DNA from: Oscillospiraceae bacterium
Lineage (GTDB): Bacteria > Bacillota > Clostridia > Oscillospirales > Acutalibacteraceae
DNA: 64,000 nucleotides
NCBI GenBank assembly: GCA_015066045.1
Contig: SVPD01000001.1
Span: forward strand, 1-64,000
Direction of reading: 5' to 3'
Under the pieces are notes generated by a model. That model was not told the origin of the DNA, did no database searches, and was given only the letters and a program-made list of their open reading frames with translations. The position numbers and the translations under genes are program-made. Every line of letters begins with the position of its first letter. Within the stretch, counting starts at the first letter, position 1. Shown piece by piece: positions 1 through 23,814 of this stretch.

Positions 1-1162
1 GTCTTTTCTCTTCGCCGATGGTTGTGCCGTCATCTATATTATTCTTCGGCTTGTTCGGGAGAGAGTCGTTAAATTTGCGAAGCATTTCCTTTTGCTCGTT
101 TGTGAGGCTTTTCGGTACCTCGACCACTATCTTGACATACTGGTCGCCCTTGCTGCGGGCGGAAAGCTGCTGGATACCTCTTCCTCTGAAGCGGAATACC
201 TCACCGGGCTGAGTGCCTGCGGGAAGCTCATATTTTACCTTTCCGTCGAGGGTGGGGATGTAGAGAGTGTCACCTAATGCAGCCTGAGCATATGTTACGG
301 GTACCTCACACCAAACATTGAAGCCGTCACGCTCGAAAAACGGATGGGGACGAACATTGACGTTTACACGAAGGTCGCCTGCGGGGCCGCCGTTTATACC
401 GGGATTACCGCCGCCGCTGACATTCAGTGACTGTCTGTCGTCTATGCCGGCGGGGATATTGATTTCTACAGTCTGTGCCTTTGACTCGAGACCTGTGCCA
501 CGGCATTTCTGGCAGGGAGTTTTTACTATTTTACCCTTACCGCCGCACTCGTTACACTGTCTGGTGGTGCTCATCACACCAAAGGCCGTTCTCTGCTGGA
601 TGTTTACGTGGCCTTTGCCTGAGCAGGTGGGACAGGTTTCGGGTGAGGTGCCCTTTGCGGCACCCGTACCCGAGCATTCCTTACACTTATCTACTCTGGT
701 TATGTTTACCTTTTTCTTGCAGCCCTTAGCTGCTTCCTCGAAGGAGATGGTTACATTTGTCTGGATGGTTGAGCCCTTACGGGGAGCGTTCGGATTCTGT
801 TGTCTGCCTCCGCCGAAGCCACCGAAGCCGCCAAAGCCTCCTCCGAACATACTGCCTAATATATCACCTAAATCGAAATCTCCGCCAAAGCCGCCGAAAC
901 CGCCACCGAAGCCGCCGGCACCGAAATTAGGATCCACGCCTGCGTGACCGTATTGGTCATATCTGGCCTTTTTATCACTGTCGGAAAGCACCTCATAAGC
1001 CTCGTTTGCTTCCTTGAATTTAGCCTCTGCAGCAGCATCACCGGGGTTAAGGTCGGGGTGGTACTGCTTGGCAAGCTTACGGTACGCTTTTTTTATTTCA
1101 TCCTCCGATGCACTCTTGCTTACACCGAGCACCTCGTAGTAGTCACGTTTATTTTCTGCCAT
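1..1162 (-). CDS. dnaJ: Chaperone DnaJ (Hsp40), 3' end beyond the window
   Basis: Class A Hsp40 co-chaperone that delivers substrates to DnaK and stimulates its ATPase. The reading frame starts at an ATG (complement of 1160-1162) behind a GAGAGGAAG ribosome site and stays open to the window edge. About 387 codons are visible, close to the usual family length, so only a few C-terminal residues should be missing. Visible in order are the J domain (residues about 5-70) with HPD in YHPDLNPG, a long Gly/Phe linker rich in GGFGG (about 75-125), four CxxCxGxG zinc motifs ([32 protein letters not shown]) and the beta-rich substrate-binding region. It is the last visible gene of the hrcA-grpE-dnaK-dnaJ cluster. 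The Gly-rich linker gives long false proline-rich frames on the opposite strand. Confidence 0.96.
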
Positions 1163-21616: not shown

Positions 21617-22276
21617 TTACCTCTTTTCTGTTATATTGTTTTCTTCTTTAAAGATGGAGCTTTCTTTTATCACGCCTCTGACACGGGAGAGGGGATAGAT
21701 GTTTGTGTTTTTGCCTATAACGGTACCGGGATTGAGAACACTGTTACAGCCTACCTCGACACAGTCACCTACCATAGCACCGAATTTTTTCAGCCCTGTT
21801 TCTATTATTTCGTCACCGTTTTTTACTTTAACGGGGGTTTTGTCGGATTTGACATTTGAAGTGACGGCACCTGCACCTAAATGTGCCTTGTAGCCGAGAA
21901 TACTGTCGCCTACATAATTATAGTGCGGTACCTGAACACAGTCAAATATTATCGCATTTTTTACTTCCGTGGAATTACCGATAACGCAGCCTTCGCCGAT
22001 GAGAGCAGAGCCTCTGATAAAGGCGCAGTGTCTGACCTCGGTTTTTCTGCCGATAATGCACGGCGCTCCTATAAAGGCGGTAGGTGCTATGCGCGCCTGC
22101 TTATGAACCCATACCTCCGGGCTTATCTGTGTAAATTCATTTTTATCCAGCTCAGGTCCTGTCTTTTTTATGAAATCGCTTATTCCCTTGAGTGCCTGCC
22201 ACGGGTATTCGTATGAGGCAAGATAGTCAGCGGCAAGAGTATGTCCGAGGGAAAAAAGCTCCTTTGTTTTTATCAT
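21617..22276 (-). CDS. Left-handed beta-helix nucleotidyl/acyltransferase (GlmU-like C-terminal domain)
   Basis: A 219-residue protein. After a roughly 60-residue helical lead it has repeated hexapeptides (IAPTAFIGAPCIIGRKTEV, IRGSALIGEGCVIG, LGAGAVTSNVKSDKTPV, LNPGTVIGKNTNIYPLSRVR) forming a left-handed beta-helix like the acetyltransferase half of GlmU. The uridylyltransferase half is absent. First gene of a unit with glmM, which supports a role in amino-sugar activation; the exact reaction is not shown. The start has AAGGTG. Confidence 0.78.
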   Translation of the reverse strand: MIKTKELFSLGHTLAADYLASYEYPWQALKGISDFIKKTGPELDKNEFTQISPEVWVHKQARIAPTAFIGAPCIIGRKTEVRHCAFIRGSALIGEGCVIGNSTEVKNAIIFDCVQVPHYNYVGDSILGYKAHLGAGAVTSNVKSDKTPVKVKNGDEIIETGLKKFGAMVGDCVEVGCNSVLNPGTVIGKNTNIYPLSRVRGVIKESSIFKEENNITEKR

Positions 22277-22316
22277 AATATCACCTTCTTACTTTATTAT
22301 ACTTTACAATGCAATT

Positions 22317-22340
22317 ATTATATAAACAAACTGTAAATAT
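22317..22340 (-). promoter_or_regulatory. 24-bp shared promoter-like block, copy 2
   Basis: Same block as 18168-18191 with one base changed, 41 bases before the hexapeptide-glmM-ung unit. A better-placed TATAAT (minus strand, about 22305) also lies between it and the gene. The rest of the stretch up to 22491 is AT-rich and I see nothing else in it. Confidence 0.45.
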
Positions 22341-22491
22341 CTATGCTGAATTCTACATCCCGTTTATATATTTTATACAAAAAAGATGGCCGAAAGGAAA
22401 AGAGAACAACAAAATAAAGGAGTCAGAAGAGAGTTGAAACACTAAAAGATTGTGCATATTACATAAAATTATATAAATATGTCTAAAACTA

Positions 22492-22520
22492 TTGACATAT
22501 AAGTGCAAACTGTGTATAAT
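22492..22520 (+). promoter_or_regulatory. Perfect sigma-A promoter of the candidate large RNA
   Basis: TTGACA (22492-22497), 17-base spacer, TATAAT (22515-22520), both boxes fully consensus. No protein gene follows for 760 bases. Confidence 0.88.
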
Positions 22521-22526
22521 GAAGAC

Positions 22527-23112
22527 ACAATCAAACAAAAGATTGAATTCAAAGAAAAGGGGTGTTACCGATGTACTGTTTAATGTAAACTGTACAGTTT
22601 GATAAGAAATCTTGATAAAAATTAAAAATGAATAGGAACCTGATTCAAACAAAGGATTTAATGAATACCTGAAATGAAATAATATAATTTTACAGACAAA
22701 ATCATCGGTTCCTGTATTAATTAAATAAATTTCTTTTCTGCTGAGATTATATGCAGAAAAATTAAAGATATATTATCGGATTGTTCAGTAATTAGCATCT
22801 TAAGGATAATGTGCAGAGGAATATAACCTTAAGACAGGAGAAAAAGCCTATGTGTGAAGAAACATCGGCTTAAGAAAGAAAACATTTATTAAAGTATCTC
22901 TCAGTATTATACATTTTCTATTATTCGGTTTTATGATTTACATAATAAAAGAAAAAAGAGGGATAAGCGAAAGGCGCAGAAGAGCCCTTATCCGAAAGTA
23001 ATTTAATTAAGCTTTGAGTGTGAATAAAGAGATACTTGGTGAGTAAAAAAATTAAATAAAAAGTATTATGAAAATTCAGTCTCCGGCAGGGAAAACCTTG
23101 CCGGAGATTTTT
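22527..23112 (+). ncRNA. Candidate large structured non-coding RNA, about 590 nt
   Basis: The stretch runs from a perfect promoter to a strong terminator and has no credible reading frame with a ribosome site. It contains many potential helices: 22528-32/22541-45, 22573-82/22586-95 (one mismatch), 22634-40/22707-13, 22734-41/22753-60, 22799-805/22827-33 (CTTAAGG/CCTTAAG), 22844-48 with 22850-53 against 22862-65 with 22867-71, 22961-67/22987-93, and a long-range 10-bp helix AAGTATCTCT (22892-22901) / AGAGATACTT (23028-23037). Size and style recall the large ornate bacterial RNAs (OLE, ROOL, GOLLD). I cannot assign it to one of them by eye. Confidence 0.6.
23080..23112 (+). terminator. Intrinsic terminator of the candidate large RNA
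   Basis: Twelve-base stem TCTCCGGCAGGG (23080-23091) / CCTTGCCGGAGA (23096-23107, one G-U), an AAAA loop and five T. Confidence 0.95.
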
Positions 23113-23158
23113 CATATTATTATACCTGTAACGAAAGAATAAATTTATTTTAATTCAC

Positions 23159-23187
23159 TTGAAATATCTTTTATATTGATATATAAT
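23159..23187 (+). promoter_or_regulatory. Sigma-A promoter of queT
   Basis: TTGAAA (23159-23164), 17-base spacer, TATAAT (23182-23187). The transcript would start near 23194, directly before the leader structure. Confidence 0.88.
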
Positions 23188-23200
23188 ACATATTGCATTT

Positions 23201-23272
23201 ATGCGGTCAGTTCGAAACCTTCCTGACCTAAACCGTTAGAGCTTAATCGGTTTAAAACCAAAACTAAAGGAG
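23201..23272 (+). promoter_or_regulatory. Candidate preQ1-type riboswitch in the queT leader
   Basis: Two compact stems, GGTCAG/CTGACC (23205-23210 with 23223-23228) and TAAACCG/CGGTTTA (23229-23235 with 23248-23254), are followed by an A-rich tail AAAACTAAAGGAG that contains the ribosome site. The first loop has CCTT, able to pair with AAGG of the ribosome site, giving an H-type pseudoknot as in preQ1 leaders. queT genes are often controlled by preQ1 riboswitches. The class (I, II or III) is not clear by eye. Confidence 0.55.
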
Positions 23273-23280
23273 TTTTAAAA

Positions 23281-23814
23281 ATGAATATGTCAAAAAAGAT
23301 CCACCGTATTGTTCTGTCGGCGGTAATTGCCGCTCTTTATGTGGCACTGACTTATGTGCAGGAGTTTTTGTTTCCTACCAGTGCTACTATGGCCGTGCAG
23401 TTTCGTGTTTCGGAAGCACTCACGGTTCTGTCTCTTTTCACACCGGCAGCCATTCCCGGTCTGACCGTGGGCTGCTTTATAGCGAATTTCTCTGTGCTCG
23501 GTGCTTTGCCGACAGACATCATTCTCGGCTCTCTGGCGTCCTTTCTGGCCTGTTATTTTATGTACAGATTAAAGGATGCTACCGTAAAGGGCTTTCCTTT
23601 TGCGGCACTGCTTATGCCCGCAGTGTTTAACGGCGTTATCATCGGAGCTGAAATCGAGATTTTCTTTATTGAGGGGCCGTTTAATTTCGTCAGCTTTCTG
23701 ACTCAGGCGGGGCTGGTATCCCTCGGCGAACTGGTCGTGCTTTACTCTCTCGGTGCTGCTCTCGTCAGAGTGATTAAAGGCAGAAGACTCGGTAAATATC
23801 TTAGCGGTGTTTAA
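23281..23814 (+). CDS. queT: QueT-type queuosine-precursor transporter (ECF S component)
   Basis: A 177-residue membrane protein with five to six hydrophobic segments, of the QueT/DUF988 family. These are substrate-binding S components of energy-coupling-factor transporters for queuosine precursors. Family features are the N-terminal RIVLSAVIAALYVALTYV helix, AVQFRVSEALTVL and a conserved acidic segment (IGAEIEIFF). No energising EcfA/EcfT genes lie near; such modules are usually shared and encoded elsewhere. The ATG has AAAGGAG 8 bases upstream, inside the candidate riboswitch tail. Confidence 0.88.
   Translation: MNMSKKIHRIVLSAVIAALYVALTYVQEFLFPTSATMAVQFRVSEALTVLSLFTPAAIPGLTVGCFIANFSVLGALPTDIILGSLASFLACYFMYRLKDATVKGFPFAALLMPAVFNGVIIGAEIEIFFIEGPFNFVSFLTQAGLVSLGELVVLYSLGAALVRVIKGRRLGKYLSGV

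Follow-up and report, generated by a model that had tools for sequence, protein, structure and literature searches.

The locus

The DNA analysed here (the window) is a stretch of 64,000 nucleotides (nt) from an Oscillospiraceae bacterium (assembly GCA_015066045.1, contig SVPD01000001.1), designated contig C54 of a 2.24-Mb genome (G000) that is 97.9% complete. A hexapeptide-repeat protein gene on the minus strand (21617–22276) and queT on the plus strand (23281–23814, assigned by Pfam) enclose a gap of 1004 base pairs (bp) at 22277–23280. Scored by a greedy script for open reading frames (ORFs), this is the longest stretch of the window without an ORF of at least 100 amino acids (aa); the next longest measures 455 bp, and the shorter ORFs inside the gap (99 and 64 aa) are both on the minus strand. 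The gap holds an element that, judged from its sequence, is almost certainly an RNA gene. We propose that it encodes a stand-alone, trans-acting structured RNA of approximately 500–600 nt that represents a new family, a reading to which we assign a probability of about 0.5. It is based on the promoter, the terminator, a conserved 5' domain, compensatory changes, varied neighbours and a distribution that follows a clade.

The features of the element are listed in Table 1. An initial annotation of this DNA had described a full-consensus sigma-A promoter, about 590 nt without a credible gene within the longest non-coding stretch of the window, and a strong terminator at 23080–23112. The promoter and the non-coding stretch are confirmed, and the terminator is found as a stem of 14 pairs at 23078–23109 followed by T. 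The length agrees as well, with predicted ends of the RNA gene near 22527 and at 23112. The consensus promoter suggests that the RNA is strongly transcribed, and the sequence AAAACTATTGAC-N-TATAAT occurs at two other sites of the same genome, ahead of a tRNA gene and ahead of a gene with a signal-peptide-like start. The number of promoter-like sites in the region is as such not raised (9, against a shuffle mean of 10.5).

Among the four closest homologs (six pairs), only 0–3 of 9–14 indels are multiples of three, so the RNA body shows no coding signal. A decayed protein gene, the alternative against which the initial annotation was to be held, was thus not borne out by the alignment. That the element is such a gene or the remnant of a mobile element appears extremely improbable: its genomic place differs between subclades, as a remnant might, but besides the indels, the compensatory changes, the conservation of promoter and terminator, the lack of a match in phage and plasmid records and the clade-bound distribution (all below) argue against it.

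Table 1. Predicted features of the RNA gene and its surroundings (positions in the window).
Feature	Position	Strand	Remarks
Upstream conserved stretch	22470–22491	+	consensus TTTGTTAAAAACTA ahead of TTGAC; alignment of 16 homologs
Sigma-A type promoter, TTGACA-17-TATAAT	22492–22520	+	12 of 12 consensus positions; TTGAC and TATAAT invariant in 16/16 homologs
RNA gene, about 585 nt	22527–23112	+	start predicted from -10 box, end from terminator
Strong Shine-Dalgarno sequence, AAAAGGGGTG	22555–22564	+	-12.4 to -15.3 kcal/mol over 16 homologs
Five-codon ORF, ATG TAC TGT TTA ATG TAA (MYCLM*)	22571–22588	+	ATG, four codons, TAA in 16/16 homologs
P1, local 5' hairpin, GTAC.GTTTA / TAAAC.GTAC	22573–22595	+	overlaps five-codon ORF and P2 5' strand
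P2, 5' strand (conserved 5' domain)	22589–22613	+	pairs with 22765–22789; 98–100% of cells paired in four homologs
P2, 3' strand	22765–22789	+	best duplex of 5' domain is here in 13/15 homologs
P3 hairpin	22798–22834	+	octaloop GCAGAGGA (22813–22820); three doubly changed pairs among four homologs
Octaloop hairpin (helix 9)	22845–22872	+	GTGAAGAA (22854–22861); two doubly changed pairs, 82% of cells paired
P4, 5' strand, AAGTATCTCT	22892–22901	+	long-range
P5 hairpin, GGATAAG/CTTATCC, inner GGC[GCAGAAGA]GCC	22960–22993	+	varies never or hardly
P4, 3' strand, AGAGATACTT	23028–23037	+	long-range, partner of 22892–22901
Intrinsic terminator	23078–23112	+	conserved; one doubly changed pair among four homologs

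Homologs and distribution

A blastn search over 59 genomes, its own included, gave matches in 17. The whole element is present in three other genomes (G014, G011 and G017; identity 75–83% by blastn, with 77–85% measured for full-length homologs), and ten further genomes match in the promoter and 5' end only; the short weak matches in G028, G044 and G055 were not counted as carriers. When the loci of the ten were read, each was found to have the same promoter and 5' domain, after which nine of them show a body that is divergent, comparable in length and closed by a terminator-like end. G003 carries two copies, and G008 has copies labelled G008a and G008b. The family thereby comprises 16 homologous copies in 14 of the 34 genomes of the genus, with the G007 copy, cut at a contig end, excluded from every full-length count. 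The promoter and the first ~60 nt are conserved, and the rest diverges strongly while keeping its size, the terminator and apparent long-range helices.

Two models were used, R1 for the 5' domain and R2 for the promoter plus 5' domain (sequence only). In the 34 genomes of the genus R1 found 15 copies at E ≤2.5e-11 and the diverged G008b at 0.046, and R2 found all 16 at E ≤3.3e-22, though R2 was built from the same sequences. Among the matches listed, R2 has matches at E ≤1 in all 34 genomes, the best below the 16 copies at 1.5e-8 (locus L163 of G024). Five of these weaker matches were read; four are ordinary gene starts and the fifth, L163, is a possible distant relative of the RNA. At L163:1150–1541 on the minus strand (G024:C36) there is a similar promoter, a Shine-Dalgarno sequence (SD) followed by ATGGGCTAG, and a terminator, with a body that has no clear homologs; the stretch folds at z -3.4 over 392 nt, extending ~40 nt beyond the terminator.

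Outside the genus nothing convincing was found in samples of 200, 295 and 398 genomes, the first two of which were scanned under tighter filters, with scoring limited to 27 or 18 candidates for each listed genome. R1 matched twice in the 200 family genomes (G000 and G017) and once in the 295 order genomes (G000), and a search for the 5' pattern in the 398 family genomes gave four matches, three from the present genus and one chance-like (G198). In named records the exact 5' pattern occurs in 12 contigs of metagenome-assembled genomes (MAGs), named as Clostridia or Oscillospiraceae bacterium; a ruminant gut sample is named as the source for 11 of them and none for SIG577. The family is so far found only in one clade of ruminant-gut Clostridia.

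A tree of glmM could be made for 30 of the 34 genomes (three have no glmM match and G016 is absent from the loci). One of its clades, supported at 100/100, unites 13 carriers with a single non-carrier, G022, and 16 sequences fall on the far side. No copy was found in G022, the assembly of which is 91% complete and in 490 contigs. The sole carrier on the far side is G007, whose RNA lies at a contig end; the protein encoded next to it shares 90% identity with its G018 counterpart. G007 is probably a mixed MAG, because its glmM and the neighbour on the RNA contig point to different halves of the genus: contig C80 (L072), which bears the RNA, goes with the carrier clade and glmM with the other half. 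The genus itself splits into two deep groups, with glmM at least 65% versus 44–48% identical to that of the window. Within the clade the four queT-locus RNAs fall together on the tree, as do G015/G032/G002 and G003/G005/G006, and a group formed by eye (G018/G025/G008a) does not clearly do so. To us the pattern suggests vertical inheritance combined with rapid turnover of the body.

Genomic context

By reading, the genes downstream of the RNA belong to 10 clusters in the 15 loci that have both flanks and are convergent in 4 of the 15. Small ORFs within the element or immediately after it were skipped in this count; including one of them, a minus-strand ORF of 104 aa that follows the G032 copy, would raise it to 11 clusters and 5 convergent cases. 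Such varied downstream genes, some of them convergent, indicate that the RNA is not a leader. A riboswitch or attenuator of queT, a reading invited by the position of the RNA upstream of queT in G000, G011 and G014, is largely refuted by these numbers and seems most improbable. In the window the terminator and then another promoter-like site (23159–23187) intervene between the RNA and queT, and in G017 the RNA has the same upstream neighbours but no adjacent queT.

Behind that promoter-like site, at 23195–23275, the queT leader forms a hairpin GGTCAG[TTCGAAACCTTC]CTGACC, followed by a second hairpin with a variable loop and then AAAACTAAAGGAG. Pairing is possible between CCTT in the first loop and AAGG in the SD, and the leader is also present in G014 and G011. 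This leader presumably resembles a preQ1-II pseudoknot; Rfam does not call it.

Fold and compensatory changes

The folding energy of the element is low (z = -5.8; 0 of 100 shuffles equally low), and across the 15 full-length members z ranges from -2.0 to -9.5 (40 shuffles each). The divergence among the homologs suffices for covariation, while their promoter and 5' end, both conserved, serve as anchors. A structure of 107 pairs was scored on the four closest homologs: 96.3% of its cells are paired, against 40–46% when it is slid along the alignment, and its covariation score is 0.181 against 0.036–0.075. Changes on both sides are seen in 11 of the 107 pairs, compared to 0–3 in six slid controls, and 0 of 500 shuffles reach 11. 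Before the count, 13 of 120 derived pairs had been excluded (the 5'-end/terminator tail, short local pairs and one lone pair), none of which had changes on both sides. The initial annotation had proposed to look for covariation in relatives, and with these changes, the conservation and the stand-alone context its view of the element as a large, structured non-coding RNA that has a promoter and a terminator of its own is supported. Three features had escaped that annotation: the 5' SD with its five-codon ORF, the long pairing P2 of the 5' domain and the octaloops that recur.

The hairpin P1 appears by eye in register-shifted form in G008b. Units of AAACTGTAC / GTACAGTTTAATTT that are repeated in the manner of operator repeats and by eye resemble the P1 sequence were seen at ~1370–1580 of locus L023 (G028:C72). 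For P2, a blind duplex scan, controlled by single-base shuffles of the partner region, found at most 6 of 200 controls as good as the P2 site in 11 of the 15 homologs. A local TCGAT..ATCGA hairpin, a candidate picked by eye, was dropped; this stretch is the P2 3' strand.

A long-range 10-bp pair noted in the initial annotation (22892–22901 with 23028–23037) corresponds to helix P4, in which one pair is doubly changed among the four homologs (A-U to G-C). A complementary pair can be named at this place in all 15 full-length members, with strands chosen by eye or from the blind duplex scan and with very different sequences, for instance GTATCTC/GAGATAC, GTATCCC/GGGATAC, CTGTGTCT/AGACACAG and ATCCGTAT/ATACGGAT; one of the 7 pairs is mismatched in G015 and one is G-U in G003a. 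The argument for P4 is made from the compensatory changes and the position, because blind scanning by itself would not prove it.

Recurrent octaloops

Hairpins with the octaloop GCAGAGGA, GTAAAGAA or GTGAAGAA occur 15 times in 10 of the 15 RNAs, on unrelated stems (shuffle mean 0.28, maximum 2 in 300; the reversed pattern gives 0). The loops are purine-rich, of the general form G-Y-R-R-A-R-R-A, and in G011 and G017 GCAGAGGA is found at the place of P5. A second loop, GGATG(T/A)AGT, sits on a 7-bp stem in each of G018, G025 and G008a, the three stems being different. In the G018 element (L011 ~1000–1031, minus strand) an octaloop, GCAGAGGT, sits on the terminator hairpin itself.

Constant loops on freely changing stems suggest a bound partner or docking. 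We tentatively suggest that the octaloops bind a partner. With similar reserve, the body may be pictured as a scaffold or titration RNA in which the repeated octaloops would be binding sites for a protein, or RNA-RNA docking loops, and the stems would only serve to present them, an arrangement that would account for the free variation of the stem sequences.

Points against the proposed reading

Several observations weigh against a trans-acting structured RNA of this kind. The 107-pair structure was derived from the very alignment on which it was scored, which favours it, and the homologs are related by descent, so that the counts are of non-independent events. Helices 5 and 9 are paired in just 82–83% of cells. 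There is no covariation for P1, because its nine pairs never vary in 15 homologs, and P2 is without any doubly changed pair among the four close homologs. In the blind scan P4 is the top duplex in 9 of 15 members and above shuffles in G018 alone (1/200), where the P4 strands were taken from that same scan and the 3' strand has three possible places. The octaloop pattern was defined after the loops had been seen, and 5 of the 15 RNAs have none. A function common to the divergent bodies is argued from their similar size, from P2 and P4 and from short motifs.

The best-known titration partner is also excluded. Titration RNAs of the CsrB/RsmZ type show a small loop on many unrelated stems, a likeness to the present RNA, which differs in that its loop is an octaloop, its genus lacks CsrA and GGA is not enriched. 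CsrA (PF02599) was found in 0 of 34 genus genomes by a search that was positive in 3 of 14 control genomes, including E. coli and B. subtilis, and GGA occurs 126 times against 128.8 in shuffles (15 RNAs, all positions). We therefore rejected a CsrA sponge. In the same RNAs AGGA occurs 60 times (52.4 in shuffles) and CAGGA 13 times (5.7).

Comparison with known RNA classes

To our knowledge, bacteria have few classes of large structured RNA, and for several of them no function is known. The initial annotation had considered the element a member or relative of the OLE, ROOL or GOLLD class, or else a new class, and had suggested a search against the large-RNA families of Rfam. With Rfam 15 at the gathering score, OLE, ROOL, GOLLD, HEARO and raiA are matched neither by the window nor by any of 15 loci (14 with homologs); permissive searches gave none of these families up to E 10 in 22300–23300 or up to E 2 in 13 loci (11 with homologs). 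All that Rfam gave was a tRNA next to one of the control promoters, plus matches attributable to chance. The RNA is thus not a detectable OLE, ROOL, GOLLD, raiA or HEARO RNA. Group I and II introns, tmRNA, RNase P and 6S RNA gave no match either (Rfam 15; ARAGORN for tmRNA). A blastn search of 50,697 phage and 72,556 plasmid records with the element gave nothing at E 0.01. The exact 5' pattern is absent from viral contigs, and a looser one has 28 viral matches, 0 of 28 with the promoter or a stop at codon 6. There is no tRNA in the window; prophage genes were sought in no flanks of the other loci. Membership in or kinship with these classes therefore found no support, whereas the last option, a new class, fits best: a new family of a known kind, the large structured bacterial RNAs. 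In the open-licence literature on ornate large RNAs, structured RNAs of rumen or Clostridia and large RNAs of Oscillospiraceae, no title or beginning of an abstract describes it.

OLE is of similar size, a stand-alone structured RNA of about 600 nt from Gram-positive, partly anaerobic bacteria (PMC9723947). OLE RNAs have highly conserved regions, whereas the present body diverges fast. ROOL and GOLLD are likewise large ornate RNAs of unknown function, ROOL with a rumen name; PMC12286853 places them in phages and prophages, often near tRNA islands. The raiA-motif RNA (ModT), also a structured RNA of Bacillota (PMC11706538), differs by the lack of an Rfam match in the window and the searched related loci.

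An RNA-only assembly in the style of OLE, ROOL and GOLLD, in which octaloops and long-range helices would make intermolecular contacts, was also considered. The size, the ornate fold and the repeated loops would suit it, and kissing loops and A-minor contacts build such particles (PMC12286853). We consider it unlikely, since there is no family match, no phage-record match and no tRNA in the window, the octaloops are by eye not self-complementary, and the body diverges fast.

The 5' end and a possible link to translation

In the window the SD lies ~28 nt from the predicted RNA start. In all 16 homologs it is stronger than the best downstream anti-SD site, scored against the 16S tail, with a narrow margin in G015 (-15.2 versus -14.3) and a comparison over just 85 nt of sequence in G007. 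The five-codon ORF behind it encodes MYCLM, MYCLV, MYRLV or MHCVA. In G008b the ORF is kept although 6 of its 18 letters differ and P1 is by eye out of register. Ordinary genes of these genomes start with the same format of SD, spacer and ATG. By analogy, the 5' end of the RNA plausibly looks made for ribosome docking: in cry3A mRNA, as reported in PMC4113751, a 30S subunit on a 5' SD (STAB-SD) blocks RNase J1. Both RNAs have a strong SD close to the 5' end, but the present one has a start codon, a stop after four further codons, and no gene.

The trans-acting RNA proposed here could then work as follows. The SD and five-codon ORF would, on an even assessment, dock initiating ribosomes ~30 nt from the 5' end, and a docked ribosome would shield the RNA from 5'-to-3' exonuclease, in the manner of STAB-SD on cry3A mRNA. 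Since P1 and the P2 5' strand would also be opened by ribosomes moving through, the fold could be switched by translation. Taken together, the RNA might represent a 'ribosome-capped' class, in which a translated five-codon ORF couples the stability or fold of a 500-nt non-coding body to translation and repeated purine octaloops, on stems free to evolve, recruit a multivalent partner, either protein or RNA; we offer this as a speculative extension.

A related, less probable alternative is a dual-function RNA in which the five-codon ORF is itself a translation sensor, with stalling or its absence toggling P1 versus P2 and hence activity. P1 and P2 indeed share nucleotides 22589–22595, and the order of SD, ATG, four codons and TAA is kept in 16/16 homologs with Cys as codon 3 in 15/16. 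Codons 2, 4 and 5 vary, however, there is no common downstream gene for a leader to control, and the invariance of P1 alone could account for the conserved codons in 15 of the 16. We regard a sensor as unlikely.

Docking at the 5' end, if true, would let long non-coding RNAs persist by simple means in bacteria that have 5'-to-3' exonucleases. The gene anatomy is complete, 13 of the 14 genomes in the clade carry the RNA and its homologs are anchored, so that the fold and the roles of the 5' ORF and the octaloops are directly testable.

Minigenes of a related form were seen elsewhere in the lineage. In loci L106 and L110 (~1500, minus strand), the leaders of genes with signal-peptide-like starts begin with an SD and an ATG and stop after 1–2 more codons, roughly 65–80 nt ahead of the real start codon, so that a 5' minigene may be a habit of this lineage.
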